From positions 1 through 64,000 of the forward strand of contig JAFRUA010000003.1 in NCBI GenBank assembly GCA_017434855.1: a stretch of 64,000 nucleotides of DNA, given 5' to 3'. Under the pieces are notes generated by a model. That model had not been told where the DNA came from and ran no database searches. It worked only from the letters and a program-made list of their open reading frames with translations. Position numbers and translations under genes: made by a program. Positions 3,690 through 58,482 of this stretch are shown here, piece after piece (position 1 is the stretch's first letter; each line of letters starts with the position of its first letter). The stretch is from Clostridia bacterium. GTDB lineage: Bacteria > Bacillota > Clostridia > Oscillospirales > Acutalibacteraceae.

Positions 3690-3710
3690 AGATTTTAGAC
3701 ATTAGATCGC
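3690..3710 (+). repeat. 7-bp repeat array leading into a hairpin
   Basis: Three units in 7-nt register (AGATTTT, AGACATT, AGATCGC) begin 5 nt after the lipase stop codon and run directly into the TCGCGGGGAA stem of the following hairpin. Unit length, polarity and following core match the other 7-bp arrays in the window. Confidence 0.6.
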
Positions 3711-3755
3711 GGGGAAGCATTCCAAAACAGGAATGTGTTCCCCGCGATTTTCGTT
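3706..3755 (+). terminator. Rho-independent terminator after the lipase-like gene
   Basis: An 11-bp perfect stem (3706-3716 with 3738-3748, ATCGCGGGGAA and its complement), with further inner pairing GCATTCC/GGAATG, is followed by TTTCGTTTT. It would stop transcription of the 2488-3684 gene. Confidence 0.75.
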
Positions 3756-3821
3756 TTGTTGTGATACGCACAAAACATTATAGGCGCCGATCGTTGATCA
3801 GCACGGCAAAACGTATACGTT

Positions 3822-5306
3822 TCACGATTGTCTTGCAGGCAGTCCGACCAGCCCGGCCGCGTCCCCGGGCATGGCCTTGTATGCCGTCAGCAGCACCCAC
3901 AATGCGTAGCCGAACACACCGAAGCGGTTGAGCGCCGGGGAATAGAAGTAATCCGTCCCGAGCAATTCCAGCTTGTTCGGCAGCACGTTGATGTATTTTT
4001 TTGCAAAGTCCTCTTTCGTAAAGCGAAAATAACAGGCGGACGGATATGCCAGCCGGGTGATGCTGTGATAATCCCAGCGGGCAACGCAGGTGTGATAGTC
4101 TGCCGCGCCTTCATCGCCGGCATAGCTGCCGAACAGCAGCCGCGGGATGTCCTCCATGAGTACGCCCTCGTGCGCCTCATTTGCCAGCGCCACAAAGCCG
4201 ACGCCGCTGTTCGGCTCCAGAAGCAGCATGGCCGCAGACAGCGAGTTGCCGTTGTGGCCGACCACGGGAACGCCGTAGGAATACAGCCAGAACAGGCCGT
4301 GACTGCTGCGCGGGACGTCGGTGCCGGTATAATTCCGGCTGGGCGCGAAGAATTCCGCAAAGCCCTCTGCCGACAGCAGCCGCTCGTCACGCAGCAGCAG
4401 CGCCCTTGCAAAGGTTTCCAGGTCGTGCAGCGTGGAGGTGCAGTGGCCCGCGGGATAGCAGTTCATCACGCGCCACGCGGCCGCCTGGGTATCCTTGACT
4501 GCGCTTCCGTCGGAATTGTAAAACCACAGGTTCCCGAAGCGCTCCTGTACGGTGGGGTTGTCTGACAGGTCGGCAGACAGGGCCGTGTTGTCCATCCCCA
4601 GCGGGACAAAGACATTTTGCCGGGCATAAGCGGAAAAGGTCTCGCCGGTGACGCACTCGATGACATATGCCGCCAGCGCGCAGCCATAGTTGCTGTAGGC
4701 GACCGTATCGCCCGGGCGATAGATCTGGTGCGGCTCGGATTTTTTCAGGTATTCCTCCAGCGTCAGGGGCTTTGCAGAGGAATAAAGCAGTTCGTCCATG
4801 GTCAGCAGGCGGTTGCGCGCAATGACGATCATGTTGGCGGTCGTGTCTTCAAAGCCCGCGGTGTGATTCATCAGGTGCAGCAGGGTGATCGGGTCGTCAA
4901 AGCGCAGCTTCCGAAGGAAGCCCTTCGGCAGATAGGTGCGAATGTCTTCGTTCAGGTCAAGCAGCCCGCGCTCGGCGAGCTGCATGGCGCTCAGCCAGAC
5001 GATCAGCTTGCTGACGCTGCCCCAGTCGACCACCGTGGTCTCGTCCATCCGCAGGCCGCGTTCTTTGTTTGCAAAGCCGAAATAGCCCTCATAGATTGTG
5101 CCCTCGGCGTCAAAGACGGCGGTCATATAGCCGTTGTCGGTGCCGCGCGCGTCAAAGGCGGCTTCGATGCGGTCCTCCAGTTCGCCATACGCCAGGCCGG
5201 AGGGAAAGGCTTTTTCGGATGTCTGTGCCGCACACAGCGGAGCGAACGGAACCAGCAGCAACAGCGCCAGAAGCAGCGCCGCCCCTTGTTTGAATTGACG
5301 TTTCAT
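3822..5306 (-). CDS. Secreted beta-lactamase-family serine hydrolase
   Basis: A 494-residue protein of the class C beta-lactamase/penicillin-binding-protein-like family (Pfam Beta-lactamase). A signal peptide covers about residues 1-28 (ALLLALLLLVPFAPLCAAQ). The three active-site motifs are present: SVSK at 97-100 (Ser nucleophile and Lys), YSN at 204-206, and HNG at 351-353 in place of KTG. The HxG variant is usual for esterases and D-aminopeptidases of this family, so true beta-lactamase activity is unlikely. Start ATG 5306 has AAAGGAGG 6 nt upstream; the open frame continues upstream to 5576 but those codons look untranslated. A C-terminal hydrophobic stretch (VFGYALWVLLTAY) could be a membrane contact. 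The natural substrate is unknown. Confidence 0.85.
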   Translation of the reverse strand: MKRQFKQGAALLLALLLLVPFAPLCAAQTSEKAFPSGLAYGELEDRIEAAFDARGTDNGYMTAVFDAEGTIYEGYFGFANKERGLRMDETTVVDWGSVSKLIVWLSAMQLAERGLLDLNEDIRTYLPKGFLRKLRFDDPITLLHLMNHTAGFEDTTANMIVIARNRLLTMDELLYSSAKPLTLEEYLKKSEPHQIYRPGDTVAYSNYGCALAAYVIECVTGETFSAYARQNVFVPLGMDNTALSADLSDNPTVQERFGNLWFYNSDGSAVKDTQAAAWRVMNCYPAGHCTSTLHDLETFARALLLRDERLLSAEGFAEFFAPSRNYTGTDVPRSSHGLFWLYSYGVPVVGHNGNSLSAAMLLLEPNSGVGFVALANEAHEGVLMEDIPRLLFGSYAGDEGAADYHTCVARWDYHSITRLAYPSACYFRFTKEDFAKKYINVLPNKLELLGTDYFYSPALNRFGVFGYALWVLLTAYKAMPGDAAGLVGLPARQS

Positions 5307-5565
5307 TACGGGGCCTCCTTTCATAAAACGGCGGGACTGCTGCATTTGGCGAAGAGCAAAAAGAAAAACAGCAACGGATCCATTGGAATCAGGTCGTAGA
5401 GACAATTCTGCGCCCCGATTTCTTTTTTCTTTGGATGGGCTGCGCCCATACCCGATCTTTGTTTTTCTTTTTTCGACGTTTTTTCTCCTTCGGCGTACTT
5501 CTGTACAGCCTTCAGTCGAAGAAAACGCCGTCTTCACCGAAATGCAACAGCCCCCTGTGGATTGT

Positions 5566-6546
5566 TTATTCGTCAATGAAGAACGCTTCGATCAGCCGCA
5601 GGTACTTCAGCAGGGTGTCGTCCACCGAGGCATAGATCTCGTGCCGGCAGCCGCGCAGCTTCACAATGCGGCCAAAGCGCACCATTGCGATGAATGCGTC
5701 TTCTTTTTCGCTGACCACGGAGTGATCCTCCTCCGGCTGGAACAGCAGCACGGGGATCTGGATCTTTGCGCAGCGTTTGGGGTCGAGGTTGCGCTTTGTG
5801 ACCTTTGCCGCCTCGCGCACCCAGCGGTACGACGCGGACGCCGTCTGCAGCAGCGGGTTCTGAAGCCGCTTGGCGTGGTAATAGTCAAAGCGGGCCTTGG
5901 ACGTGTCGTTGCTGGTCTCAAACGTCGCGTCTGGGTTGAAGCCGTGGAAGACAAAGACGCGCTCGTCGCCCTTGCCGAGCAGGATGGAGGTGTCGGCGAG
6001 GGCCTTCGCCGCCGGAATGGGCAGCGGCATCTTGGGCATGATCATCGGCGCGCTGAGAATGGCGCGCTCAAATACGCCGGGATAGGTCTGCAGGTGCTGC
6101 ACCGTGATGGCGCCGCCCATGGAGTGCGCGTAGACATACAGCGGCAGGTCCGGGTACGCCGGCCGCACGACCGTTGTCACAAAGGTCTGCAGGTCCTCGA
6201 CATAATCCGTAAACCGGCCGATCGTCACGGTCTGGGGGTCGTCTGAGTTGCGGCGCGCGGAATTGCCGTGACCGCGGTTGTCGATGGCAAAGACGTTCAG
6301 CCCCATCATCAAAAAGTAATAGGACATCTCGCGGAACTTTTCGGCGCTTTCGGTGTAGCCGTGGACGATCACCACGGTGGCGACGGCATTTTCGGCCGGA
6401 TAGGCCTCATAGCTGATCGGCGCGCCGTCAAAACCGGGAAAGGTTGTTTTGGTACGCCGCGCGGCAAGGAACGGTTCCACGACCGTTTCCATCGTTTGGG
6501 CATAATTGACTTCCGACACCGGCAGCGTGCTGAATTTGGTTGACAT
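5566..6546 (-). CDS. Monoacylglycerol lipase-like alpha/beta hydrolase
   Basis: A 326-residue hydrolase of the serine aminopeptidase S33/Hydrolase_4 family (PldB, monoglyceride lipase). Visible: VIVHGYTES near 59-67 (oxyanion loop), IDNRGHGNS near 88-96, the nucleophile elbow AHSMGG at 140-145 (Ser142), a PEEDHSVV acid segment and a GCRHEIY segment supplying the His. No signal peptide, so it is intracellular. The ATG at 6546 follows AAGGAGG with 7-nt spacing. It lies upstream of the beta-lactamase-family gene on the same strand, 259 nt away, so the two may or may not share a transcript. Expected to cleave lysophospholipid or monoacylglycerol esters; the exact substrate is inference. Confidence 0.85.
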   Translation of the reverse strand: MSTKFSTLPVSEVNYAQTMETVVEPFLAARRTKTTFPGFDGAPISYEAYPAENAVATVVIVHGYTESAEKFREMSYYFLMMGLNVFAIDNRGHGNSARRNSDDPQTVTIGRFTDYVEDLQTFVTTVVRPAYPDLPLYVYAHSMGGAITVQHLQTYPGVFERAILSAPMIMPKMPLPIPAAKALADTSILLGKGDERVFVFHGFNPDATFETSNDTSKARFDYYHAKRLQNPLLQTASASYRWVREAAKVTKRNLDPKRCAKIQIPVLLFQPEEDHSVVSEKEDAFIAMVRFGRIVKLRGCRHEIYASVDDTLLKYLRLIEAFFIDE

Positions 6547-6665
6547 GGCGGTTCCTCCTTCGGGTACGGTTTTCTCGCCTTCTATTGTAGACGATTTCAC
6601 GCCAAAAATCAACCGCTCTGCAACATTTTGCCGTTCTTTTTTCGGACCCCGGCCGGGTCGGCGGA

Positions 6666-7901
6666 TCAGGCCGCGTCGTTTTGCATTTCGGGTTCGTCGA
6701 TGAGCGACGTCAGCAGATGCGCCTTTTCCAGCATCGTCTGGGCAAAGATGGCATAGCCGTGCTTCGGGTCGCCCAAAAAGACGTGGGTCACTGCGCCCAC
6801 CAGCATGCCGTTCTGCACCACGGGACTGCCGCTCATGCCCTGCACAATGCCGCCGGTGGCCCGCAGCAGAGCGTCGTCTGTGATACGCAGCGTCAGGTTC
6901 TGGCCCCTGGCGTTGGTTTTGTCCACCCGTTCGATTTTGGCGTCAAAGGCCTGCGGTCCGGCGCCGTCCACGGTGGCGATGATCTGCGCGTCGCCGACCT
7001 GCACCTCGCTGCGCGTTGCCACGGGATACACGCTGCCCGTGAAAACGTCCTGCTCCAGAAAGCCGTAAACACCGTCGTTCCCGTTGACCAACAGGCTGCC
7101 GCACCGGTCGTCGGCAAATTTTCCGCTCAGCGCACCGGCGGCGCTGGCGCTGCCCTTGCGGCAGTCGCTGACGGTTGCCGTGACAATGTCGCCCTCAAAC
7201 AGCGGCAGCGGTTCGTTGGTCTCGGCGTCGCAGACCGCGTGGCCGAGTCCGGCATAGACGCCGCTTTCCTGTTCAAAAAAGGTCAGTGTGCCAATGCCTG
7301 CGGCGCTGTCTTTGATCCACAGCCCGGCCAGATATTTTTTCTGCGCGTCGCAATAGGCCGGCGAAAGCGCGGTCTCTTTTTGTTCCCCGCCGCGCAAAAA
7401 GACAACGGTCATCGGCGTGCCGTCAAAGGATGCGAACATTTGCGCAAGCTGTGTGTGGGAACGGATGGTTTCGCCGTTCACGCGCAGGATGACGTCGCCC
7501 GCGGCAAGACCGGCGTCGTCCGCGGGATTCGCTTCGCCGTCCGCGGTCAAAACGGCTTGGGTGCCGGCAACCACCACGCCGTCGGTATACAGCCGCAGGC
7601 CGAACAGTTCGCCGCTGACGGTGACATACTGCCGCCTGCGGACCGTCATGGTCGCGGTTTTAACCGGCAGCACGCCCAGCAGATTGACCTGCACATCATA
7701 GGAGCGCACGCCCTGCGCCGTGACGGTTGCGCTGCCGGCGGCAACGGGCTGCAGCGTATAAAGCAGGTGCGTCTGCGGCACCGCGTCAGACACGGCGGTC
7801 ATCTCATCCGGCACCGCGACAGTTCCGAATATCAGCAGGACCGCCAAAAGCAACACCACGCCGATCGCACCGAGCTTTGACACGTACATGATTTTTTTCA
7901 A
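6666..7901 (-). CDS. spoIVB: SpoIVB-like sporulation serine peptidase
   Basis: A 411-residue protein with one N-terminal membrane segment (about residues 11-30), a PDZ domain (about 120-190, with AGDVILRVNGE) and a C-terminal SpoIVB peptidase S55 domain. The catalytic Ser motif TGGIVQGMSGSPVVQNG is unmistakable and is followed by GAVTHVFLGDP. In Bacillus, SpoIVB is secreted from the forespore and triggers SpoIVFB processing of pro-sigma-K; here it marks the organism as a likely spore former. The start appears to be TTG at 7901 with GGAGG 7 nt upstream; ATG at 7889 is the alternative. A small AGGCGC/GCGCCT hairpin sits just upstream in the leader (7916-7934). It is divergent from lexA; in Bacillus spoIVB neighbours spo0A, which is not seen here. 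Confidence 0.9.
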   Translation of the reverse strand: MKKIMYVSKLGAIGVVLLLAVLLIFGTVAVPDEMTAVSDAVPQTHLLYTLQPVAAGSATVTAQGVRSYDVQVNLLGVLPVKTATMTVRRRQYVTVSGELFGLRLYTDGVVVAGTQAVLTADGEANPADDAGLAAGDVILRVNGETIRSHTQLAQMFASFDGTPMTVVFLRGGEQKETALSPAYCDAQKKYLAGLWIKDSAAGIGTLTFFEQESGVYAGLGHAVCDAETNEPLPLFEGDIVTATVSDCRKGSASAAGALSGKFADDRCGSLLVNGNDGVYGFLEQDVFTGSVYPVATRSEVQVGDAQIIATVDGAGPQAFDAKIERVDKTNARGQNLTLRITDDALLRATGGIVQGMSGSPVVQNGMLVGAVTHVFLGDPKHGYAIFAQTMLEKAHLLTSLIDEPEMQNDAA

Positions 7902-8037
7902 AATTTCACCTCCATAGGCGCGTCAAAAGCGCCTGTCTTTAATGTTTGCGCCGCGCGCCGGATTATCATCGGAAATTTGCGTTGTGCACCGGAATCGCGC
8001 GCCGTTTCGCGGGTGGAAAAATTTTTTGAAAAAAATC

Positions 8038-8051
8038 AAAACAAATGTTTG
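8038..8051 (+). promoter_or_regulatory. Candidate LexA (SOS) box of lexA
   Basis: AAAACAAATGTTTG matches the Bacillus DinR/LexA consensus CGAACRNRYGTTYG at 12 of 14 positions, with both AAC and GTT half-sites intact. It overlaps the -35 of the lexA promoter, the expected place for autorepression. Confidence 0.7.
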
Positions 8052-8077
8052 CATTTTTGAAAAAGATGTGCTATACT
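8049..8077 (+). promoter_or_regulatory. lexA promoter
   Basis: TTGCAT at 8049-8054, a 17-nt spacer and TATACT at 8072-8077, 35 nt before the lexA ATG; the -35 overlaps the candidate LexA box. Confidence 0.75.
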
Positions 8078-8112
8078 ATCCTAAACAGAATAAATGTTCA
8101 AGGAGGGTTTGT

Positions 8113-8703
8113 ATGGAACCTTTGACTGACAATCAACGCAGAGTTTTTGAATTTTTGCGCGACCGCTCCGGCGACGGCATCCCGCCCACCGTGCGAGAGA
8201 TCGGCGCCGCCGTGGGCATGACGTCCACGTCCACGGTCCAGCGCAACCTGGACGCACTGGAAGAAAAGGGCTACATCATGCGTGACCCGCTGCGCAAGCG
8301 GACCATCCGCATCGTGGGCCAGGCAGAGCATGTGCACCATGTGCCGCTGCTGGGTACCGTCACGGCCGGCGCGCCCATCCTTGCCGTGGAGCAGATCGAA
8401 AGCTATCTGCCCTATTCCGGCTATGTGTCCAAAGACAAGCCGCTGTTTGCCCTGCACGTCCGCGGAGAAAGTATGCTCAACGCCGGCATCCACGACGGCG
8501 ACATCATCTTTGCCGAAAAGACCCCGACGGCCCGCAACGGCGACATTGTGGTCGCGCTGCTGGAGGATGAGGCCACGGTCAAGACGTTCTATAAAGAGAA
8601 CGGTCACTTCCGTCTGCAGCCGGAAAACGACGCCTATCAGCCCATCATTGTCAACGAGGTCATCATCCTGGGCAAGGTCGTCGCCCTGCTGCGGTACTAT
8701 TGA
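8113..8703 (+). CDS. lexA: LexA repressor
   Basis: A 196-residue SOS repressor with the standard two-domain layout. The N-terminal winged helix (MEPLTDNQRRVFEFL, then PPTVREIGAAVGMTSTSTVQ, residues 24-43) recognises DNA. The C-terminal S24 peptidase domain has the autocleavage bond Ala85-Gly86 in TAGAP, the nucleophile Ser120 in RGESM and the general-base Lys157 in ATVKTF. RecA filaments would stimulate self-cleavage and derepress the SOS regulon. The ATG at 8113 follows AAGGAGG. The promoter carries a LexA box over its -35. The stop codon overlaps the start of the next reading frame, so the two are likely co-expressed. Confidence 0.97.
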   Translation: MEPLTDNQRRVFEFLRDRSGDGIPPTVREIGAAVGMTSTSTVQRNLDALEEKGYIMRDPLRKRTIRIVGQAEHVHHVPLLGTVTAGAPILAVEQIESYLPYSGYVSKDKPLFALHVRGESMLNAGIHDGDIIFAEKTPTARNGDIVVALLEDEATVKTFYKENGHFRLQPENDAYQPIIVNEVIILGKVVALLRYY

Positions 8704-8708
8704 GCGCC

Positions 8709-9182
8709 GTGAAACTCAGTAAATATGAAGGAAAGTGCGTGCGCGTCTACCTCAAAAGCGGCGAGATCTTTGAGGGGATCGCGGAGCACGACAGCGCGGA
8801 ATACTGCTTTCACGAATTCGGCGTGGACGAAGATGCGCTGCAAATGGAGAACTTTGTGCTGTATCGCCGCGATATCAAAAAGGTTGAATCCTTAGAGGGC
8901 CGCACCGGTCCCTGGGGTCCGTTTTCCGCGCCCTTCGGCCAGTTGGAAGAGGCGGTCTGCGACGCCGGCGCCGATCTCATCGATGAGGTCTTTACCGGCG
9001 AAGAGGACGTGCACATCGTGCGGCTGCTGCGCTGCCTGATCGTCCGCCTGGGGTCGAGCGACGCCAAAGAGATTCCCGACGTTGAACAATTGCCGAAGCT
9101 GCTGCGCGATCTGCCGTCCTTCACCGAAAATGAAGAGGCGCTGGAAATGGCGAAGCAGTTGCTGGAAAAAGTTGAAAGTTGA
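8709..9182 (+). CDS. Unknown protein with Sm-like N-terminus, coupled to lexA
   Basis: A 157-residue cytosolic protein I cannot name. The first 60 residues (GKCVRVYLKSGEIFEGIAEH, then EDALQMENFVLYRRDIKKVE) look like a small beta-barrel of the Sm/LSm type. The rest is acidic and helical, with a run of Ile/Leu-rich helices near the end. The frame begins right at the lexA stop: TTG at 8700 overlaps it by two bases, and GTG at 8709 gives the more natural start MKLSKYEG. Neither has a good ribosome binding site, so translational coupling to lexA is likely. That would place it under SOS control. A 7-bp repeat array begins in its last codons and a terminator follows. Confidence 0.7.
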   Translation: MKLSKYEGKCVRVYLKSGEIFEGIAEHDSAEYCFHEFGVDEDALQMENFVLYRRDIKKVESLEGRTGPWGPFSAPFGQLEEAVCDAGADLIDEVFTGEEDVHIVRLLRCLIVRLGSSDAKEIPDVEQLPKLLRDLPSFTENEEALEMAKQLLEKVES

Positions 9183-9205
9183 CGGTCAACGGTTGACGGT
9201 TGAGT
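9171..9205 (+). repeat. 7-bp tandem repeat array over a stop codon
   Basis: Five units in exact 7-nt register: GTTGAAA, GTTGACG, GTCAACG, GTTGACG, GTTGAGT. The array starts inside the last codons of the preceding gene and includes its TGA, then runs into a terminator hairpin. Confidence 0.75.
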
Positions 9206-9231
9206 CCTTCCCGAAAGGGGAGGGCTTTTTT
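9206..9231 (+). terminator. Terminator of the lexA unit
   Basis: CCTTCCC, GAAA loop, GGGGAGGG, then CTTTTTT. The stem includes one G-T pair. It immediately follows the 7-bp array. Confidence 0.7.
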
Positions 9232-9454
9232 GCAGCAGCGCCATGTTGCGGGATTTCACCGATGCCCCGCAGCCTTTCGGGCGGCAATGCAAAGCAGGGG
9301 AAAACAAATGTCACCGGATCGTCGACCGCTGCACGCCTTCCCCGAAAAGGAGGGCGTTTGTTTGTTTCTGAAATTCATCTCGATTTTGGGTGTCATAATA
9401 GGCCTCATCCCTACCTAAAATTTCAGCAAAAAAGGATGCGGTCAGCGGCACTCT
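9232..9454. other. Intergenic stretch, no gene seen
   Basis: Short open frames here have no ribosome binding site and no recognisable content. A second, weaker copy of the CCTTCCC-type hairpin (CCTTCCCCGAAAAGGAGGG at about 9342-9360, followed by CGTTTGTTTG) is visible. Otherwise nothing was recognised. Confidence 0.4.
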
Positions 9455-9459
9455 TGAAA

Positions 9460-9497
9460 AACAAGAAAAACCCGCGAAAACACAGTGTTTTCGGGGG
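9460..9497 (-). terminator. Terminator of the tRNA-Thr gene
   Basis: Read on the minus strand: CCCCCGAAAACA, short loop, TGTTTTCGCGGG, then TTTTTCTTGTTTTTC. Strong stem with a T-rich tail just after the tRNA 3' end. Confidence 0.8.
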
Positions 9498-9500
9498 TTC

Positions 9501-9576
9501 TGGAGCTGCTAACCGGATTTGAACCGGTGACCTCATCCTTACCAAGGATGCGCGCTACCGACTGCGCCATAGCAGC
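9501..9576 (-). tRNA. tRNA-Thr (GGT)
   Basis: A complete cloverleaf on the minus strand. The acceptor stem is GCTGCTA paired with TAGCAGC, and the D arm has GCGCAGTCGGTAGCGC. The anticodon stem CATCC/GGATG holds loop TTGGTAA, hence anticodon GGT (Thr). The T arm has CCGGTTCAAATCCGG. The discriminator is T and the CCA end is encoded at 9501-9503. Confidence 0.95.
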
Positions 9577-9714
9577 ATCTGTTCACAACAGCTTTCATAT
9601 TATAGCCTAATTGTTTGCAATTGTCAATGGATTTTGAAAAGAAATTTTTTGTTTTTCAAAAAAAGTCACGGGGCGCGTCGAGCGGGTCGGCGCGCCCCGA
9701 TGTTGTCGGTTGCG

Positions 9715-10655: not shown

Positions 10656-10666
10656 CCCGATTGGGG

Positions 10667-10695: not shown

Positions 10696-10720
10696 GATGG
10701 TGAAAAAAGGGGGACGTGAG

Positions 10721-14847: not shown

Positions 14848-14870
14848 ATGATTTCACGCTCCTTGTATAA

Positions 14871-15046
14871 GTTTGCAGTGTGCAGTTTGCAGTGTGGAGT
14901 TGTGGGGCGCCGCCTGCGGCGATGCGCCGAAAGCCCGACAGAATCAACGAGCGCGAAATGGACAGTCCCTTTTTTGCGCGGACAAAACAAAGCATTCGTT
15001 ACATATTGCCTGCGGCCTTGACTGTACGCTGCAAACTGAAGTGCAC
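14871..15046 (+). repeat. 7-bp array with palindromic core (MITE-like unit)
   Basis: Four 7-nt units (GTTTGCA, GTGTGCA, GTTTGCA, GTGTGGA) at 14871-14898 are followed by a GC-rich hairpin (GGCGCCGCC and GGCGATGCGCC around TGC, about 14904-14926). At the far end TGCAAACTGAAGTGCAC (15030-15046) is roughly the inverse of the array words. No coding content is seen between the iolE and metallophosphoesterase genes. Confidence 0.6.
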
Positions 15047-19625: not shown

Positions 19626-19702
19626 TGCAGCGCGACCACCGTCTAATGTCTAACGTCTAACATCTAACATCTGAAAGAATGAAGCATGGCTTCATTCTTT
19701 CG
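19626..19702 (-). repeat. 7-bp array with core and iolB-stop hairpin
   Basis: On the minus strand a 12-bp perfect hairpin (GAAAGAATGAAG and its inverse, 19673-19702) is built around the iolB stop codon. It is followed by five 7-nt units (19641-19675; GTTAGAT, GTTAGAC and variants) and then the core GGTGGTCGCGCTG (19626-19638). The order array-then-GTCGCG core matches the other elements. Confidence 0.7.
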
Positions 19703-22976: not shown

Positions 22977-23051
22977 CACTTACATCATATCACACCTCTT
23001 TTATAAAGAAAATTGCAAGCAAAACTTTTTTTGTTCCGGAAAAACCGCGCG

Positions 23052-23094
23052 CAAAAAAACGCCGGCCGCCCGGGACAGAACCCACAGCAGCCGG
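23052..23094 (-). terminator. Terminator left by a lost dehydrogenase paralogue
   Basis: Minus strand: CCGGCTGC pairs with GCGGCCGG (one G-U), followed by CGTTTTTTT. It is a diverged copy of the hairpin at 23274-23313 and follows the gene remnant at 23116-23176. Confidence 0.7.
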
Positions 23095-23115
23095 ACGGTT
23101 TGTTTAATGATGTGT

Positions 23116-23176
23116 TCAGTTCACCACGTTCGACGGCGTCCCGCGCAGGAAGTTCTTGACATTTTCACAAAAATGC
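23116..23176 (-). pseudogene. Remnant: C-terminus of a D-2-hydroxyacid dehydrogenase paralogue
   Basis: The last about 19 codons read ENVKNFLRGTPSNVVN and stop. This is nearly the same as the end of the intact dehydrogenase just upstream (ENVENFLHGTPSNVVN). Both the coding end and the following terminator are duplicated with an exact 220-nt offset. Nothing upstream of the fragment matches the rest of the gene, so most of a tandem paralogue has been deleted. Confidence 0.75.
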
Positions 23177-23273
23177 AAGTTAACGTTGCAAAAAACTTCA
23201 TTTGATCAAAAGTTGACACGTTAAACATGGATAATTCTTGACGCTTCACTTTTATATTCAAAACCGCACGTGC

Positions 23274-23313
23274 AAAAAACGCCGGCCGCCGGGGCAGAAC
23301 CCGCAGCAGCCGG
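23274..23313 (-). terminator. Terminator of the hydroxyacid dehydrogenase gene
   Basis: Minus strand: CCGGCTGC and GCGGCCGG stem followed by CGTTTTTTGC, 23 nt after the stop codon. Confidence 0.75.
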
Positions 23314-23335
23314 ACGGATTTATTTGACGGTCGGT

Positions 23336-24295
23336 TCAGTTCACCACGTTCGACGGCGTTCCGTGCAAAAAGTTTTCCACGTTTTCGCGGAAAATGCCCA
23401 TCAGCCGGGTGCGCGCCTCAAAGCTGGCCCACGCGATGTGCGGCGTGATGAGGCAGCGTTCGCAGGTCAGCAGGGGATTGTCTGCCTTCGGCGGCTCGGT
23501 CGAGAGCACGTCCACGCCCGCGCCGGCGAGTCTGCCCGCGTCCAGCGCGGCGGCAAGGTCCGCTTCGTTGACGACCGGCCCGCGCGAGGTGTTGATGAGG
23601 TACGCGGTCGGCTTCATCTTTGCGATGAAGTCCGCGTTCACCAGACCGGCGGTCTCCTTTGTCAGCGGGCAGTGCAGCGACAGCACGTCGCTTTCTTTTT
23701 GCAGCGTTTCCAGCGAAACGAATTCCACGCTGCCGAACCCGTCATAGGTACGCGCATGCGGCGTGCACACCAGCACGCGCATGCCAAAGGCGTTTGCAAT
23801 GTTGGCGACGGCCGTGCCGATGCGGCCAAAGCCGAAGATGCCGAAGGTCTTTCCGTGCAGCAGCGAGATCGGCGCCGCCTGATAGCAGAAGTCGGGGCAG
23901 GCGGTCCAGTCGCCGCGCTTGACGCTGTCGTTGTGCAGCGCAACACGGTTCACCAGCTCCAGCACGAATGCAAAGACCAACTGCGCCACGCCGTCGGTGC
24001 TGTAGGCCGGGATGTTGGACACGGGAACGCCGTGCGCCCGGGCGGCGTCCACGTCGATGACGTTGTAGCCCGTGGCGAGCACCGCGATGAATTTGAGCTT
24101 TGGCAGCGCGTCGATGATCTCTTTGGTGAGTACGGTCTTGTTGGTCACCAGAATGTCGGCGTCACGGCTGCGCTCGAGCACCAGCGCCGGCGGCGTGCGG
24201 TCATATACGGTATAGCTGTCAACCACGTCGGCCAGCCAGTCCCAGCGCAGGTCGCCCGGGTTTTCGGCATGGCCGTCCAAAATCACAAGGTCCAT
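23336..24295 (-). CDS. D-2-hydroxyacid dehydrogenase (glycerate dehydrogenase-like)
   Basis: A 319-residue NAD(P)-dependent dehydrogenase. Nucleotide-binding motif GFGRIG at 155-160, catalytic Arg in NTSRGPVV, the Glu segment in DVLSTEPP and the catalytic His in ITPHIAWAS. Closest in layout to HprA-type glycerate/hydroxypyruvate reductases; it lacks the ACT domain of SerA. It would interconvert glycerate and hydroxypyruvate or a related pair. It is followed by its own terminator and by the remnant of a second copy, and preceded by an unrelated lipoprotein gene 13 nt away on the same strand. Substrate assignment is tentative. Confidence 0.88.
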   Translation of the reverse strand: MDLVILDGHAENPGDLRWDWLADVVDSYTVYDRTPPALVLERSRDADILVTNKTVLTKEIIDALPKLKFIAVLATGYNVIDVDAARAHGVPVSNIPAYSTDGVAQLVFAFVLELVNRVALHNDSVKRGDWTACPDFCYQAAPISLLHGKTFGIFGFGRIGTAVANIANAFGMRVLVCTPHARTYDGFGSVEFVSLETLQKESDVLSLHCPLTKETAGLVNADFIAKMKPTAYLINTSRGPVVNEADLAAALDAGRLAGAGVDVLSTEPPKADNPLLTCERCLITPHIAWASFEARTRLMGIFRENVENFLHGTPSNVVN

Positions 24296-49101: not shown

Positions 49102-49146
49102 AATTCGGAATTCCGAATTTTAACTCCATACTCCACACTTTTCACC
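49102..49146. repeat. 7-bp arrays without a core
   Basis: AATTCGG, AATTCCG, AATTTTA at 49102-49122, then ACTCCAT, ACTCCAC, ACTTTTC in the next register up to 49143. The same words occur at 58062-58082 and 58407-58482. It lies directly before the trmK ribosome binding site. Confidence 0.55.
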
Positions 49147-50625: not shown

Positions 50626-50628
50626 GCC

Positions 50629-52365: not shown

Positions 52366-52373
52366 AGCGTTAT

Positions 52374-52606
52374 CAATGGAGAATGGAGAATGAAGAATTG
52401 CGGTCGCGCCGGACATTATGAAAACCGTCGGGTTTGCGCCGCGAAGTTCGTTTGTTTTCTGCGGTAAGCGTGTAAATCAGAATGAGCCTTTGAGACGGAT
52501 CTTCCAATCAAAGCGCCTTCGGTTGGCTGCACGGTTCCTTTGCGGGAAGAATGCTGCAGTTGCCGAGCCGTTTCCCGCGATCATCATTCTTCATTCTTCA
52601 TTTTCC
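52374..52606. repeat. MITE-like unit bounded by inverted 7-bp arrays
   Basis: Left: AATGGA, GAATGGA, GAATGAA (52374-52394) then core GAATTGCGGTCGCGCCGG. Right: ATTCTTC, ATTCTTC, ATTTTCC (52586-52606), which on the other strand reads GAATGAAGAAT followed by GATGATCGCGGG. So the same array-core order faces inward from both ends of about 230 nt. The first 90 nt inside the left end align with the element at 58083. No gene is seen. Confidence 0.7.
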
Positions 52607-52622
52607 CCGAAAGGAGCATCCC

Positions 52623-53981
52623 ATGTCCAACTACAACGTCCTGACTTACGGCGCGGCCGGCAACGGTGCGCATGACGACGCCGCTTCCATTCAGGCGGCC
52701 ATTGACGCCTGCTTTGCCGCCGGCGGCGGGCGGGTGGTCCTGCCCGGCGGGCACACCTATCTGAGCAGCTCGCTGCGCCTGAGGGCAAACGTGGAGCTGT
52801 ATGTTGACAAAGGCGCCGTGCTGAAAGCGACGGGCGACCTGAACGGGTATATCCGCCCGAACGAAACGGTCAACGACCCCAAGACCGCCCTGATCGGCAA
52901 CCCGGTGACGGGCAAGCCCAGCTTTGTCTTCCTTTACGGGTACGAGGCGCACGGGTGCGCCATTGCCGGGGCGGGGGTGATCGACGGCCACGCCGACGCC
53001 TTTGTCAAGCGCAAAGACCGCTATTATGTCACGGGCGACTTTTATCCGCGCCCCACGACGATCTATGTTGAAAAGAGCGACCACGTCACGTTTTGCGATT
53101 TCACGGTGCGGAACGCGCCGTTCTGGACGCTGCACCCGGCGGGCTGCGACGACGTGCTGATCCGGAACATCCGCATTCTCAACGATCTGGACGTTGCCAA
53201 TTCCGACGGCATCGACCCGGACCACTGCCGCAACGTGCGCATTCTGGGCTGCCACATCGTCTGTGCCGACGACTGCATCTGTCTCAAGACGACCAAAGGC
53301 AACGCGGAATACGGCCCGTGCGAAAACATCGTCATCGACGGCTGCACGCTGACGTCCACCTCGGCGGCGATCAAGATCGGGACCGAGGGCGTCGCCGATT
53401 TCCGCAACGTGCTGGTGTCCAACTGCGTCATCAGCCGGTCCAACCGCGGGCTGTCGATCCAGATCCGCGACGGCGGCAGCGTGGAAAACGTCAGCTATCA
53501 GAACATCATGATCGAAACGCGGCGCTTTTCGTCCGACTGGTGGGGCACGGCGGAACCGATCGTGCTGACGGCCTTTGACCGCGATGAAAACACCAGAAGC
53601 GGCAGCATCCGGAACGTCCGCTTTTTCAACGTGACCGCCGTGGGCGAAAACGGCGTGCTGCTGCACGGCACGGCAGACAACCCCATCCGCGACGTGACGT
53701 TTGACCGCTGCAGCGTCACGGTCACCAAAACAAGCAAGTGGCCCTGCGGCCTGTATGACCTGCGGCCGTGCCTGGCCTATGGGGTGGAGACCGCCGACAA
53801 CGCCGCGTTTTATCTGCGGTACGCCGACCGGGTTGCTCTGGTCGACACCCGTGCGGCCTTCGGCACGGTGTGCGACAGCTACCGTCATGCCCTGGACGCG
53901 GAACATGTCACCGGTCTGGACCTGCGCCGGTTTGAGGGCAGGGGGGCACACCCGGAGGATGCGGCGGTTAGAAGCTGTTAG
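52623..53981 (+). CDS. Glycoside hydrolase family 28 (polygalacturonase-like)
   Basis: A 452-residue right-handed beta-helix enzyme. The start YGAAGNGAHDDAASIQAAID is the usual GH28/pectate-lyase-superfamily opening. Active-site motifs: NSDGIDPDHC near 197-206 (NTDG type; catalytic Asp), CADDCICLK near 216-224 (DD pair), and the IKIGTE and GLSIQIRDGG substrate loops. The GHG motif of fungal enzymes is not seen. It would cleave galacturonans or related uronide links. There is no signal peptide, suggesting it acts on imported oligomers, as in many gut Firmicutes. ATG 52623 follows AAAGGAG. Its last two codons and stop belong to a 7-bp repeat array. Confidence 0.88.
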   Translation: MSNYNVLTYGAAGNGAHDDAASIQAAIDACFAAGGGRVVLPGGHTYLSSSLRLRANVELYVDKGAVLKATGDLNGYIRPNETVNDPKTALIGNPVTGKPSFVFLYGYEAHGCAIAGAGVIDGHADAFVKRKDRYYVTGDFYPRPTTIYVEKSDHVTFCDFTVRNAPFWTLHPAGCDDVLIRNIRILNDLDVANSDGIDPDHCRNVRILGCHIVCADDCICLKTTKGNAEYGPCENIVIDGCTLTSTSAAIKIGTEGVADFRNVLVSNCVISRSNRGLSIQIRDGGSVENVSYQNIMIETRRFSSDWWGTAEPIVLTAFDRDENTRSGSIRNVRFFNVTAVGENGVLLHGTADNPIRDVTFDRCSVTVTKTSKWPCGLYDLRPCLAYGVETADNAAFYLRYADRVALVDTRAAFGTVCDSYRHALDAEHVTGLDLRRFEGRGAHPEDAAVRSC

Positions 53982-54001
53982 CGGTTAGCGGTTAGCAGTC
54001 A
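53967..54001 (+). repeat. 7-bp array across the GH28 stop codon
   Basis: GTTAGAA, then GCTGTTA, GCGGTTA, GCGGTTA, GCAGTCA in 7-nt register. The array includes the last codons and TAG of the GH28 gene and leads into GCGCGCGGGGAA, matching the core that follows the array at 3690. Confidence 0.75.
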
Positions 54002-54035
54002 GCGCGCGGGGAACTGATTGCGGCGGAGCCGCCAC

Positions 54036-54092
54036 CTCGCAAGGCGCCCCCTTTGGGGGAGCTGGCAGTGCCGCAGGCACTGACTGAGGGGG
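54036..54092 (+). repeat. REP-like palindromic element, copy 1
   Basis: CCCCCTTTGGGGGAG, then an inner GGCAGTGCC/GGCACTGAC stem-loop, then TGAGGGGGTG. Elements with this build are common between genes of Faecalibacterium-type genomes, from memory. An inverted, diverged copy lies at 54342-54386. Confidence 0.65.
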
Positions 54093-54128
54093 TGCTTCCG
54101 AAATGGAACGTCCGCGCCGCGCGAATCA

Positions 54129-54572
54129 GTTTGCAGTGTGCAGTTTGCAGTGTGCAGTTGATGTCGCGCTGCACATTTTTCTCTGCCAAAACGTCCGCGC
54201 CGCGAAGGGACAGATCGATTCATTTGCGGTTCTGTTTGGTACGCGGTGCGGGTCTCCGGTGGAGACCTCGCGAAGCGAAGCAACGACCGAGGCGGGAGCC
54301 GAGAACGGCAGGCGAGACTTGGGGAAAGTCGCTGCGCGACAACGCCCCCTCCGTCGCTGCGCGCCACCTCCCCCGAAATCGGTGGAGGCTAAACACTTCC
54401 CCTTCACCGCTGCGTAAAAGCGGCGGCGCGTCTCTCACGATCGCCGAACCCTTCCCCGCGTACCAAAAAGCAACGCCGAAACCACCTCCACGTCCCTTCG
54501 CGGACGAAACCTTTTGACAGAGAAAGCGTTCCGGCGCGACCTCAATTCTTCATTTTTCATTTTTCATTTTTC
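54129..54572. repeat. Composite element with about 95-nt inverted ends
   Basis: Left end: array GTTTGCA, GTGTGCA, GTTTGCA, GTGTGCA (54129-54156), core TGATGTCGCGC, then TTTCTCTGCCAAAA, CCGCGAAGGGAC and GGTACGCGG (to about 54247). Right end read inverted from 54572: three GAAAAAT units, GAAGAAT, core TGAGGTCGCGCCGG, then TTTCTCTGTCAAAA, CCGCGAAGGGAC and GGTACGCGG (to about 54460). The inner 200 nt contains the inverted REP copy and no convincing gene. Confidence 0.75.
54342..54386 (-). repeat. REP-like palindromic element, copy 2 (inverted)
   Basis: Read on the minus strand: GGGGGAGGTGGC, a short GCGCGCAGCGA loop region, CGGAGGGGGC. It has the same outer GGGGGAG and GGAGGGGG blocks as 54036-54092, opposite direction. 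Confidence 0.6.
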
Positions 54573-54600
54573 TTTTTTCAGTAGAAAGGCCGGTGCACCC

Positions 54601-57600
54601 ATGCCCTTTACCCATCTGCATCTGCATACCGAATACAGCCTGCTGGACGGCGCGTGCCGCATCCGCGACCTGATGGACGTGGTCAAGGCGGGCGGCATGG
54701 ATGCCGTGGCCGTCACGGATCATGGCGTGATGTACGGCGCCGTGGAATTCTATAAAGCCGCCAAAGCCGCCGGGGTCAAGCCCATCATCGGCTGCGAATG
54801 CTATGTGGCCGCCCGGTCGCGGTTTGACAAGGTGCGCGGGCCGGACAGCGAACGCTATCACCTGATTTTGCTGTGCAAAAACGAAACGGGCTATCGCAAC
54901 CTGATCGCCATGTGCTCCTTGGCGTTTACCGAAGGGTTTTATACCAAACCGCGCATCGACCGCGACCTGCTGCGGCAGTACCACGAGGGACTGATCTGCC
55001 TGAGCGGCTGCCTGGCGGGCGAGGTGCCGCGATTGCTGCAGCGCGGGGATTATGACGGGGCCAGAGCCACGGCCCTGTGGTACCGCGACCTGTTCGGCGA
55101 CGGAAACTATTACCTTGAAATTCAGAATCACGGCCTGCGTGAGGAGCGCGACATTCTGCCGGAGCTGATCCGCCTGTCACAGGAAACGGGCATCCCCCTG
55201 GCCGCGACCAACGACGCGCACTATCTGGAAAAGGCGGACGCCGAGCTGCAGGAGGTCCTGCTGTGCATCCAGACCAACCATGTGCTGGGGGAGGACACGG
55301 GCCTGTCGTTCTCCACCGAAGAGTTCTATGTCAAAAGCGACGCCGAAATGCGCGCGCTGTTTGCCGCGGTGCCGCAGGCGATCGAAAACACCGCCGTCAT
55401 TGCCGCGCAGTGCAATCTGGATTTCACCTTTGGCAACACGGTGCTGCCGCACTTTGACGTGCCGAACGGCGAAGACCACGCCGCCTATTTTCGCCGGCAG
55501 TGCCTTGCGGGGCTGAACGCGCTGTTTGACGGCGCGCCGCCCCGGGCCTATCTGGACCGGCTGGACTATGAACTGGGCGTCATCGAGCGCATGGGCTATG
55601 TGGATTATTTCCTCATCGTGCACGATTTCATCCGCTTTGCCAAAAGCAAGGGCATCCCCGTGGGGCCGGGGCGCGGCAGCGGGGCCGGGTCGCTGGCGGC
55701 GTACTGCATCGGCATCACCGGCATCGACCCGATGAAATACAACCTGCTGTTTGAACGCTTTCTGAACCCGGAGCGCGTGAGCATGCCGGACTTTGACATC
55801 GACTTTTGCTACGTCCGGCGGCAGGAGGTCATCGACTATGTGATCGGCAAATACGGCGCCGACCATGTGGCGCAGATCGTCACCTTCGGCACCCTGGCCG
55901 CCCGGGCCGCAGTGCGCGACGTGGGGCGGGTGCTGGGCATGCCGTACCCCGCCGTGGACACGGTGGCAAAGCTGATCCCGGCGGAGCTGAAGATCACCAT
56001 TGACAAGGCGCTGAAGCAGTCGGCCGACCTGCGCACGCAGTATGAAGATTCTGCCGACGTGCGCCGCCTTCTGGACCTTGCCCGCAAGGTGGAGGGTATG
56101 CCCCGCCATGCTTCGACCCACGCCGCCGGGGTGGTCATCACGCGCGAACCGGTGATGCACTATGTGCCGCTGGCCGTGAACGACGAAAGCGTCGTGACCC
56201 AATACACCATGACCACGCTGGAACAGCTTGGACTGCTGAAGATGGACTTTCTGGGTCTGCGCACGCTGACCGTGATCGACGACACGGTCAAGCTGATCCG
56301 CAAGCGCGTGCCCTCGTTTTCGCTGAATGACATCGACGTGGACGACAAAGCGACCTATGCCATGCTGTCCACCGGCCGCACAGACGCCGTGTTTCAGTTT
56401 GAGTCGGCGGGGATGCGCAGCGTGCTCAGCCGCCTGAAGCCGGAGAATCTGGAGGACCTGATCGCCGTGATCTCGCTGTATCGTCCCGGCCCGGCGGATT
56501 CCATCGGCACCTATATCGACAACCGCCACCACCCCGAACGCACCACCTATCCGTGCGAACAGGTCAAAGACATTCTGGCTGTGACCTATGGGTGCATGGT
56601 GTATCAGGAGCAGGTCATGGAGATTTGCCGCGTGGTCGCGGGGTACTCCTATGGCGCGGCGGATCTGGTGCGGCGCGCCATGGCCAAAAAGAAGCTGGAC
56701 GTGATGGAAAAAGAGCGGGAGCACTTCATCACCGGCGCGGTGCAAAACGGCGTGGACGAGGCCACGGCCCGGTCGCTGTTTGAAGAGATGTCGCGCTTCG
56801 CAAACTATGCGTTCAACAAATCCCACGCGGCGGCGTATGCCTTCGTCGCGTTCCAGACGGCGTGGCTCAAGTGCCATTACCCGTGCGAGCTTTTGGCTGC
56901 CACGCTGACCAGCGTGCTGGATTCGTCCGCCAAGGTGGCGCTGTATATCGCGGAGTGCACCCGGCTGGGCATCCGCGTGCTGCCCCCCAGCGTCAATGCC
57001 GGGGCGCAGGATTTCACTGTGGAGGACGGCTGCATCCGCTTCGGCCTTTTGGCCATCAAAAACCTGGGCCGCGGCTTTATCCGTGTGATCATTGAAAAGC
57101 GGCGCACCGGGCCGTACCGCAGCTTTTTTGACTTTTGCCGGCGTACCTTCGGCAAGGAGTTCAACAAACGCGCCGTGGAAAGCCTGATCCTTTGCGGCGC
57201 GCTGGACGGCCTGGACCTGAACCGCAAAGAGATGCTGTATCTGCTGCCCATCGCCGTCGATCATCTGGAAGAGGAGCGAAGCCACAACATCAGCGGCCAG
57301 ATCGGCTTTTTTGACGAGGGGTCGGTCTTTGCGGCGCAGGATGCGCCAAAGCCGCTGAAGCTGGAGGAATTCCCCTATGAACAGATGCTGGCGGATGAAA
57401 AAGCGATCACGGGCCTGTATCTGTCCGGCCACCCGATGCAGCCGTATACGGACCTTGCCGCCACTGTGGGCGCCGACCGCATCGGCGACCTGTTGACCGA
57501 GGATGAGGCCCCCACCGCGCGCTATCGCGACGGGGCGCGGGTCAAGCTGTTCGGCGTGGTGACCGGCGTGGGAAAAAAGACGACCAAGACCGGCGCGACG

Positions 57601-58050
57601 ATGGCTTTTGTGCAATTGGAGGACCTGACCGGCAGCGTGGAGTGCCTGGTCTTTCCGCGTCTTTATGCCGACCGGCAGCAGTTGCTGCAAAACGGCACGC
57701 TGCTTTTGATCGAGGGCCGCATCAGCCGGCGCGAGGATCAGCCGCCGTCGGTGCTGTGCGACCGGGTGGACGCGAACCCGAAAAACACCGTTGCCCCCGC
57801 CGCGCAACAGCAGGGAGAAAAACAGGGCGGGCGAAAAGGCGTCTTTCTGCGTGTGGAATCGCGCAGCGACCCGCGCCTTGCAAAGCTGAAAACCCTTTGC
57901 GAGATCTTTGGGGGCGCGTTCCCGCTGTATGTGTTTTATGCCGACGAGAAAAAATATGCGCATTTTGCAACGATCGCCGCCCACCCGCCGGTGCTGGACG
58001 AGCTGCGGTACCTGTTCGGCAATGACGACGTTGTGGTGAGGGGAGATTAG
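54601..58050 (+). CDS. dnaE: DNA polymerase III subunit alpha (DnaE)
   Basis: An 1149-residue C-family polymerase. PHP domain at the N-terminus (HLHTEYSLLDG, TDHGVMYG). The palm/catalytic region has GPGRGSGAGSLAAYCIGIT near 354-372 and the catalytic Asp pair in MPDFDIDFCYVRR near 395-407. The fingers follow, and a C-terminal OB-fold has VKLFGVVTGVGKK and LEDLTGSVECLVFP (about 980-1020). It lacks the exonuclease insert of PolC, so it is the DnaE type that extends primers in Firmicutes, alongside PolC. ATG 54601 is chosen from the conserved start PFTHLHLHTEYS, with AAAGG upstream; the frame before it lies in a repeat. Confidence 0.97.
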   Translation: MPFTHLHLHTEYSLLDGACRIRDLMDVVKAGGMDAVAVTDHGVMYGAVEFYKAAKAAGVKPIIGCECYVAARSRFDKVRGPDSERYHLILLCKNETGYRNLIAMCSLAFTEGFYTKPRIDRDLLRQYHEGLICLSGCLAGEVPRLLQRGDYDGARATALWYRDLFGDGNYYLEIQNHGLREERDILPELIRLSQETGIPLAATNDAHYLEKADAELQEVLLCIQTNHVLGEDTGLSFSTEEFYVKSDAEMRALFAAVPQAIENTAVIAAQCNLDFTFGNTVLPHFDVPNGEDHAAYFRRQCLAGLNALFDGAPPRAYLDRLDYELGVIERMGYVDYFLIVHDFIRFAKSKGIPVGPGRGSGAGSLAAYCIGITGIDPMKYNLLFERFLNPERVSMPDFDIDFCYVRRQEVIDYVIGKYGADHVAQIVTFGTLAARAAVRDVGRVLGMPYPAVDTVAKLIPAELKITIDKALKQSADLRTQYEDSADVRRLLDLARKVEGMPRHASTHAAGVVITREPVMHYVPLAVNDESVVTQYTMTTLEQLGLLKMDFLGLRTLTVIDDTVKLIRKRVPSFSLNDIDVDDKATYAMLSTGRTDAVFQFESAGMRSVLSRLKPENLEDLIAVISLYRPGPADSIGTYIDNRHHPERTTYPCEQVKDILAVTYGCMVYQEQVMEICRVVAGYSYGAADLVRRAMAKKKLDVMEKEREHFITGAVQNGVDEATARSLFEEMSRFANYAFNKSHAAAYAFVAFQTAWLKCHYPCELLAATLTSVLDSSAKVALYIAECTRLGIRVLPPSVNAGAQDFTVEDGCIRFGLLAIKNLGRGFIRVIIEKRRTGPYRSFFDFCRRTFGKEFNKRAVESLILCGALDGLDLNRKEMLYLLPIAVDHLEEERSHNISGQIGFFDEGSVFAAQDAPKPLKLEEFPYEQMLADEKAITGLYLSGHPMQPYTDLAATVGADRIGDLLTEDEAPTARYRDGARVKLFGVVTGVGKKTTKTGATMAFVQLEDLTGSVECLVFPRLYADRQQLLQNGTLLLIEGRISRREDQPPSVLCDRVDANPKNTVAPAAQQQGEKQGGRKGVFLRVESRSDPRLAKLKTLCEIFGGAFPLYVFYADEKKYAHFATIAAHPPVLDELRYLFGNDDVVVRGD

Positions 58051-58482
58051 TGTGGAGTTATAATTCGGAATTCGGAATTCGGAATTGCGGCCGCGCCGAC
58101 ACGAAACTGCAACCGGCAGGTTCGTGTCGCGAAGGAAGCTTGTACACTGCGGCAAGTGTGTTGATCAGAACAGAATCGTTGGGTTCAGTGTGCAGTTTGC
58201 AGTGTGCAGTTATGGTCGCGGAATGCGTTGTTCTGTACGCTGACATTGCACCTGCGGAAAAACCGCGCTGATAACCGAAAGCGCTTTGATCAGAATTCTG
58301 ACCTCACAAGTTATATTCTAATTGACACACTCACCATTGAGCAAAAGCTTTCTCTGCGGCGCTGATCTGCCGGCTTTCGCGGCGTTCAGCGCGACATCAC
58401 TTCCGAATTCCGCATTCCGAATTCCGAATTTTTACCGCACACTCCAAACTCCAAACTCCACACTGCAAACTCCACACTGCGC
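58050..58482. repeat. Cluster of 7-bp arrays and cores between dnaE and pfkA
   Basis: Array AATTCGG x3 (58062-58082), core AATTGCGGCCGCGCCG and a hairpin with arms CGACACGAA/TTCGTGTCG. Next is a second array GTGTGCA, GTTTGCA, GTGTGCA (58188-58208) with core TTATGGTCGCGG. On the other strand are ATTCCGC/ATTCCGA units (58407-58434) followed by ACTCCAA, ACTCCAA, ACTCCAC, ACTGCAA, ACTCCAC, ACTGCGC (58441-58482), with an inverted core GTGATGTCGCGC at about 58390-58401. No gene is seen in this 430-nt stretch. Confidence 0.75.

Follow-up and report, generated by a model that had tools for sequence, protein, structure and literature searches.

Heptamer-repeat arrays in an Acutalibacteraceae draft genome as probable terminal arms of small foldback elements of the PF05635 (S23) kind

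We analyzed a window of 64,000 nucleotides (positions 1 to 64,000 of contig JAFRUA010000003.1, assembly GCA_017434855.1, from a Clostridia bacterium of the Acutalibacteraceae) that carries a family of 7-bp tandem-repeat arrays, with words that differ between arrays and, in several, a short core containing TCGCG. A first-pass annotation had listed fourteen such sites and proposed a mobile repeat, the target of a dedicated enzyme or a structured RNA. The window's own genome is a 2.74-Mb draft, and all genomes compared with it are drafts; in the GTDB collection, the closest full-length relatives of its dnaE come from Clostridia metagenome-assembled genomes (MAGs), at 60% identity, and the closest congener among those compared stands at 80%. 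Here we describe the arrays as paired arms, which in full-length relatives bracket a gene of the S23/23S-rRNA-intervening-sequence (IVS) family. Our reading, to which we give a probability of about 65%, is that they serve as terminal arms for small, mobile foldback elements of the S23/IVS kind, dispersed outside rRNA and present in the window as gene-less derivatives.

Period-7 arrays in the window and its genome

Scoring +1 per match and -2 per mismatch, we found 12 period-7 segments with a score of at least 9 in the window, and 11 with a score of at least 12. At the higher score, the other periods from 4 to 15 gave one segment at period 9, six at period 14 (the double of 7) and none elsewhere. 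Composition-matched shuffling, named beforehand as one test that could refute the arrays, left them standing, as 40 dinucleotide shuffles of the window produced no period-7 segment at a score of 12 or more. Eleven of the fourteen listed sites lie above threshold, while those at 3690, 49102 and 49123 are shorter remnants below it, and the site given as a single array at 58407-58482 is actually two (58401-58430 and 58441-58478).

In a 464-kb sample, made up of the window and 400 kb of its own genome, segments scoring at least 12 numbered 26 at period 7, 17 at period 14 and 20 at all other periods together, including seven at period 9, four each at 12 and 15, two each at 5 and 6, and one at 8. 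At a score of at least 10 the sample holds 29 arrays, 12 of them in the window, which is unusually rich in arrays by this comparison. Ten of the 29 lie inside crude open reading frame (ORF) calls, some of which look spurious. An Rfam scan of the window returned a single tRNA as its sole match, with no known RNA family at the arrays.

Arrays as inverted arms

The arrays are not free-standing: they come as inverted pairs, which the first-pass annotation missed. An intact copy has 230-450 bp enclosed between a G-rich array and the inverse complement of that array, and comparison of the window with itself revealed long imperfect palindromes, at 54158-54545 and 58062-58462, that terminate in arrays. 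Among 15 pairs of arrays at most 1.5 kb apart in the 464-kb sample, five were inverse complements and one was direct, against roughly 10% each for random pairs. An inverse partner (score at least 11, within 700 bp) was found for 12 of the 29 arrays, compared with 18 of 174 controls.

The TCGCG core sits just inside the arm in intact copies. Reading each arm on its G-rich strand, we found a match to GGTCGC or [GA]TCGCG within 14 nt of the array at the inner end of 7 of the 12 window arrays and at the outer end of none; look-alikes (GGCCGCG, GCGCGCGG and GGGGCGCC) accompany three more, and two have neither. The core also recurs beyond the window, with 13 of the 29 arrays of the sample carrying it on the inner side and three on the outer, two of these three belonging to a single element (L264, arms at 7921 and 8148) for which the base count leaves the direction in doubt. 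At the 97 gene-bearing arms described below, it was inside 16 and outside none. The earlier observation that the core always follows the array on the same side thus holds, and it holds because the core faces the interior of an inverted pair: right-hand arrays stand on the opposite strand, so that the "same side" means the inner side.

Two of the three two-armed window elements (E1 and E3; coordinates in Table 1) fold as hairpins closed by their arms, with z -2.8 for E1 (2 of 200 shuffles equally stable) and z -7.9 for E3 (0 of 100), and to this extent the suggestion of a structured RNA is compatible with what we see. The third, E2, is a self-palindrome at 59% identity from 54158 to 54545 and has a fold z of -4.5, in which its two arms do not pair.

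A PF05635 gene between the arms

The same arms bracket genes of the S23/23S-rRNA-intervening-sequence four-helix-bundle family (PF05635), which the first-pass annotation did not see. The full-length element, mostly 410-640 bp, consists of an arm, a PF05635 gene and the inverse arm. The family occurs at 9 places in the own genome and in 47 of 59 genomes (the own genome and its relatives), with 155 matches in all, of which we examined 78: the 9 from the own genome, the 29 first listed and the next 40 by E-value. Period-7 arrays lay within 200 bp on the left of 52 of these genes, on the right of 45, on both sides of 43 and on at least one side of 54; by the same measure, 101 dnaE loci gave 4, 2 and 1 for left, right and both. 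Across periods 4 to 15, period 7 and its double alone gave more than one match at the PF05635 loci. Left and right arms matched each other as inverse complements with a mean score of 23.0; shuffled partners gave 6.6 (at most 9.8 in 1000 shuffles) and a direct orientation gave 4.4. Of the pairs, 42 of the 43 two-armed loci have inverse-complement arms. A test that makes no use of the period agreed, with inverted repeats scoring at least 14 around 47 of 78 genes and around 6 of 78 when partners were taken from other loci. All 24 aligned proteins match both PF05635 and TIGR02436, and the proteins match the solved structures 2RLD (1e-41) and 2GSC (4e-26).

The window copies carry no PF05635 gene, and the window contig has none among the matches. 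They do share sequence with gene-bearing elements: the right end of E2 and locus L218 have an arm-plus-core stretch of 52 nt in common at 81%, and the core at 14870 matches gene-bearing L131 over 39 nt at 90%. The 62 gene-less arrays of the own genome matched its five gene-bearing words at 12.32, and 2000 random five-word sets from other genomes reached a mean of 10.82 (standard deviation 0.43, maximum 12.29), a comparison in which single words from congeners (L211, L129) match equally well and base composition is uncontrolled. Taken together, these data are strong support for the anatomy of the elements and their association with the gene.

A separate PF05635 subfamily lacks arrays (L141, L183, L185, L192, L198, L207 and L210). 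Its members have a common leader of ~245 nt, and homology is limited to the leader and the gene in several pairs. The leader holds the Rfam Gut-1 RNA (RF01706) in five of the seven (E < 0.01; one above the gathering score), some of the matches being inverted pairs, and in L192 and L198, from one genome, homology begins 1-2 nt from a tRNA 3' end. Gut-1 could belong to a mobile element.

Arm words and protein types

At a site beside a gene that we take, from its translated flank, to be serS, five species could be aligned (L128 is a sixth match to the region). The flanks align, and the words are TAGTGGC, TAGCWGT, TTAGCNG, TTAGCTG and TAGTCGT; both arms show the species' own word in L126, L129, L130 and L113, so that in four of the five copies the two arms have changed jointly, and L127 is decayed. 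The orthologous pairs L186/L216, L193/L218 and L191/L203 each retain one word. A word can also change in phase within an array, as in AGTGTGG-AGTTATA-ATTCGGA at 58049 and likewise in the remnant at 49102.

Arm length is narrowly distributed. Of 97 gene-bearing arms (range 16-80 nt), 45 measure 31 or 32 nt and 63 measure 30-33 nt, and 31 or 32 nt is also the length of 10 of the 29 arrays of the genome sample. This length corresponds to 4.5 units, or to five 4-nt boxes with 3-nt spacers.

The words go with the type of protein. Across 51 elements from 27 genomes, word similarity correlated with protein identity (r 0.63), a value reached in 0 of 2000 free permutations and 0 of 2000 permutations within genomes; r was 0.56 for pairs below 70% identity and 0.47 within subfamily 2. 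Proteins with a NIAEG motif (n = 13) have TAG/AGT words, and those of the GTSIGAN type (n = 38) have AAT/AAA words. The class difference was also present in 50 loci with arms from outside the Clostridia (2 unclassified), where it was reached in 0 of 5000 permutations, the AAT-class frequency being 0.36 in 7 type 2 loci versus 0.05 in 41 of type 1. Part of the correlation could come from word and protein being inherited together, which counts against our reading to that extent; the turnover of words at one site, however, argues that inheritance alone does not suffice. These sequence comparisons give moderate support to recognition of the word by the protein. The idea of a target for a dedicated enzyme therefore survives in part: the words do follow a protein family, although binding is putative and that protein is not known as a transposase.

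Evidence for mobility and the question of a mover

Several copies resemble one another at unrelated sites. L265 and L289, from one genome, are 88% identical over 452 bp, beyond which 1.4 kb on either side does not match, and L132 and L133, from two species, are 87% identical over 466 bp at unrelated sites. Relatives of E2 occur at 78 places in the own genome, in part through a repeat inside E2. The space between dnaE and pfkA (the latter presumed from a motif) was readable in 12 of 30 loci and was empty in 10 of these, with 82-162 nt from stop codon to motif; the two loci with an element (the window, where the element is E3, and L157) have 548 and 276 nt. With dispersed copies, homology limited to the element in some gene-bearing copies, and this comparison of syntenic sites, which the first-pass annotation had proposed, the suggestion of a mobile repeat is supported, and we consider the case for mobility good, as judged from sequence.

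Two further probes were set aside. E2 as a genus-wide query matched 23 of 34 genomes, with many matches at its GC-rich repeat (query 128-200), and the per-genome counts were not used; one genome without a PF05635 match, G022, has 4 E2-probe matches. The dnaE loci of other genera (80 loci) were too distant to serve as empty sites, and period-7 matches occurred in two of them only, one consisting of runs of N. Several E2 relatives lie ~200-700 bp from contig ends (own-genome contigs C76, C44, C62 and C38), as if the repeats broke the assembly, and the true copy number may be higher.

An account without mobility would have static hairpins, such as terminators or spacers, grow by replication slippage and stay paired through quasi-palindrome correction. 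The in-situ change of words at one site fits such a process, as do the 17 of 29 arrays that have no partner and the 17 of 29 for which a gene 3' end is the nearest boundary, a preference that we found unconvincing when examined as such. Against it stand gene-bearing copies at unrelated sites (L265/L289, L132/L133), empty sites, and a gene present at 9 places whose arms have a narrow length and words that follow the protein, and we regard it as quite unlikely.

Miniature inverted-repeat transposable elements (MITEs) and REPIN/RAYT elements are small, palindromic, gene-less and dispersed, and the elements here share these features, the window copies being gene-less and dispersed with terminal inverted repeats. 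The elements here differ in that their arms are internally repetitive and change in sequence, and in that no link to a transposase was found within the families searched, Y1 and RVT_1. Their ends and core recur in PF05635 elements, whose protein is not known as a transposase. Among the 47 PF05635-positive genomes, RVT_1 matched in 10, Y1 in 28 and neither in 19, the last including G033 (8 copies, 98% complete) and G050 (7 copies, 98%). The own genome has one Y1 transposase match, with no arrays beside it, and no match to the reverse transcriptase family PF00078, which matched in 13 of 59 relatives. We therefore rejected Y1 or a reverse transcriptase, within these two families, as a required mover, co-occurrence being lacking. 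The small size, the inverted ends, the gene-less majority in the own genome and its one Y1 match would suit MITE-like elements of the ordinary kind, whose mover is an unrelated transposase or reverse transcriptase and whose four-helix-bundle gene is a passenger. Set against the genomes with neither family and the array-free Y1 locus, and with a passenger not expected to follow the arm word, this alternative appears unlikely.

Breadth beyond the genus

PF05635 is carried by 4 of 20 genomes of other groups, and 6 of their 18 loci, in three genomes, have matched arms on both sides (matching judged by eye). In the Planctomycetota, the phylum of the Phycisphaerae MAG G073, 25 of 59 genomes have PF05635 matches. 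We examined 68 Planctomycetota loci (28 first listed and 40 by score, with a few taken from G079 and G091). Inverted repeats scoring at least 14 bracket 44 of the 68, against 0 of 68 controls, and arrays on both sides have period 7 at 18 loci and period 8 at 8. A clear period could be assigned to 36 arms, namely 7 in 25 of them, 8 in nine and 6 in two; loci with period 8 or 6 include L265, L272, L289, L298, L301, L303, L314 and L318. The first-pass annotation's constant unit of 7 is thus correct for the window and does not extend to this gene family in the Planctomycetota: because arms there also show 8 and 6, period 7 is typical and not a law.

Several observations weigh against the elements as we describe them. 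On anatomy, 17 of the 29 arrays in the 464-kb sample have no inverse partner by the above measure and are solo or worn; 24 of the 78 PF05635 loci have no array on either side; dnaE, the one gene used for the period-7 comparison, is a weak control; a core match is absent from 81 of the 97 gene-bearing arms; the two arms of one gene-bearing locus (L132) match as a direct repeat; and the arms of E2 carry different words, so that with its arms unpaired E2 looks recombined. At the dnaE-pfkA site, congener flanks are too diverged for a target-site duplication to be read. On the tie between word and protein, locus L243 breaks the word-class rule, in other groups arm length shows no cluster at 31-32 nt (3 of 14), and in the Planctomycetota word and protein correlate weakly (r 0.20, reached in 0 of 2000 permutations; 0.13 below 70% identity, 2 of 2000) and the period label has no association with protein identity.

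Comparison with known systems

To our knowledge, no function has been agreed on in decades for either heptamer tandem repeats or S23/IVS proteins. For the IVS, the available text of PMC4990558 says the same. The Coxiella IVS is described there as 428 nt long, with a 28-bp stem of terminal inverted repeats, an S23p gene and, depending on the strain, two or three tandem heptamers before it; it is cut by RNase III within the stem, and mobility is mentioned as an older proposal (PMC4990558). The 23S rRNA IVS of Coxiella and Leptospira thus resembles our elements in its S23p-family gene, its terminal inverted repeats, its size and, in Coxiella, its heptamers (PMC4990558, in part). The gene is present in the gene-bearing relatives and lacking in the window copies, and a closing stem of complementary ends is seen at the two-armed loci and in the folds of E1 and E3. 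Unlike the IVS, the elements here are many, dispersed and in some cases gene-less, and their words vary with the protein type. No locus matches E. coli 23S or 16S rRNA (Planctomycetota loci were not in this comparison), and for this reason of location we do not class them as 23S IVS. The best reading of the sequences is that they are IVS-like, a probable variant of that kind outside rRNA.

Short heptamer tandem repeats are also known as the short tandemly repeated repetitive (STRR) sequences of heterocystous cyanobacteria. In Beggiatoaceae, most TAACTGA repeats sit immediately upstream of a start codon (PMC4679880, in the text available), and TAACTGA has been counted in Thiomargarita (PMC4853749). 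Both kinds resemble our arrays in being short, intergenic and of period 7 with variable words; the available text on them, including PMC4679880, mentions neither an inverted arm as partner nor an associated gene, an apparent difference from our arrays. None of the terms four helix, S23 and intervening appears in the PMC4679880 text.

RNase III cleavage of the Coxiella stem and the position of the TAACTGA repeats both bear on a further alternative, in which the elements act in RNA processing or regulation, the stem being cut by RNase III or bound by the protein so as to tune neighboring transcripts, and mobility being old or incidental. The E1 and E3 hairpins closed by arms would suit this role, which is compatible with our preferred reading and does not exclude it. 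The neighboring genes, which we take from their translations to include dnaE/pfkA, serS and pgk/tpiA, look miscellaneous, and copies nest in one another; as the main explanation we consider it very unlikely.

The Foldback and Galileo elements of Drosophila are eukaryotic, large and code for a transposase of the P-element superfamily (PMC3573991, in part). A resemblance of PF05635 to the Avd protein of diversity-generating retroelements is noted in part of PMC10053308, and the proteins here are alike in fold (PF22296 weakly in 8 of 24, NF033474 in 10 of 24); unlike such retroelements, the own genome has no reverse transcriptase match.

In the literature searched, with most subscription journals and preprints outside it, no paper joins heptamer arrays to PF05635 outside rRNA. 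The statement that no such family is known in Clostridia is therefore accurate for that literature, although the elements are common in the genus and also occur elsewhere. What appears new is the tie of heptamer arms to PF05635 outside rRNA, the heptamers noted in the Coxiella IVS being the prior hint (PMC4990558, in part).

A possible mechanism

Under the foldback-element reading, the window copies would have lost the gene and retained arms and core, as MITEs do. That arms stay complementary while the word changes points to a stem that works by pairing, at the level of DNA, RNA or both, and fold-back copying may be the source of the joint change. As the word class follows the protein subfamily and arms typically hold five boxes, we infer that the four-helix-bundle protein binds the arms, perhaps with one box per subunit; the bound protein might mark the element for movement, processing or both, with gene-less copies served in trans. 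Our guess for the mover would be host replication or repair acting on the protein-marked hairpin. The S23p protein of X. campestris forms a ring of five identical subunits (Lin 2006, quoted in PMC4990558); for the elements here the pentamer geometry, like the moving machinery, is speculative. A still broader proposal, which we hold tentatively and think possible but doubtful, is a transposase-less class with ends keyed to the protein, in which a pentameric ring would read five boxes per arm with each subunit taking one, word and protein would co-evolve through fold-back rewriting of the arms, gene-less copies would ride in trans, the heptamer orphans of cyanobacteria, Beggiatoaceae and others would be worn ends and the 23S rRNA IVS would be rRNA-resident members.

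The reading joins heptamer repeats and S23/IVS proteins into one testable system, in which the protein type can be predicted from the arm word and vice versa. Should the protein bind the arm, the variation already present across many genomes would amount to a ready-made binding code.

Individual elements of the window

Table 1. Arms, cores and remnants of the heptamer-array family in the window
Feature	Coordinates	Strand	Description
E1	52375..52602	+	gene-less; inverse-complement arms; hairpin fold
E1 left arm	52375-52398		AATGGAG/AATGAAG
E1 core	52399-52409		TTGCGGTCGCG
E1 right core and inverse arm	52573-52602
E2	54127..54579	+	cores and interior pair; arms bear different words
E2 left arm with core	54127-54158		AGTTTGC/AGTGTGC
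E2 right arm with core	54545-54579		inverse of GAAAAAT
E3	58049..58480	+	gene-less, nested; two inverted pairs
E3 left arm	58049-58086		AGTGTGG passing in phase into AATTCGG
E3 inner array with core	58186-58210
E3 right inverse arms	58401-58430 and 58441-58478
Solo arm	53973..54003	+	GTTAGCG/GTTAGCA, then core look-alike GCGCGCGGGG; period-7 score 15
Arm with look-alike core	14870..14918	+	arm AGTTTGC/AGTGTGC at 14870-14900; core GTGGGGCGCCGCC
Arm with core inside	19626..19672	-	arm TTAGACG/TTAGATG at 19641-19672; core GGTGGTCGCG at 19626-19640
Array without core	9168..9203	+	AAAGTTG/GTTGACG, then terminator-like hairpin
Remnant	49102..49139	.	AATTCGG back-to-back palindrome and short ACTCCAT/ACTCCAC array; below array threshold
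Remnant	3682..3754	+	TTTTAGACATTAGA directly 5' of hairpin starting TCGCGGGGAA; below array threshold

Beyond the three two-armed elements, the arm at 14870 has a weak inverse partner near 15012-15038 (score 11), and the arms at 53973..54003 and 19626..19672 have none within 700 bp. The remnant at 49102..49139 aligns with the arms at 58049-58086. Inside E2, a GC-rich stretch at 54247-54320 is a dispersed repeat of the genus, and many of the matches in other genomes fall there.

Elsewhere, TATAATAAAAGTGGACACC, which we assume to resemble an insertion-sequence end, abuts a heptamer array at two places (L005, ~1777, and L027, ~1448). The window also holds a direct repeat of ~138 bp, 82% identical between 23041-23176 and 23260-23397, that adjoins an AT-rich intergenic region.

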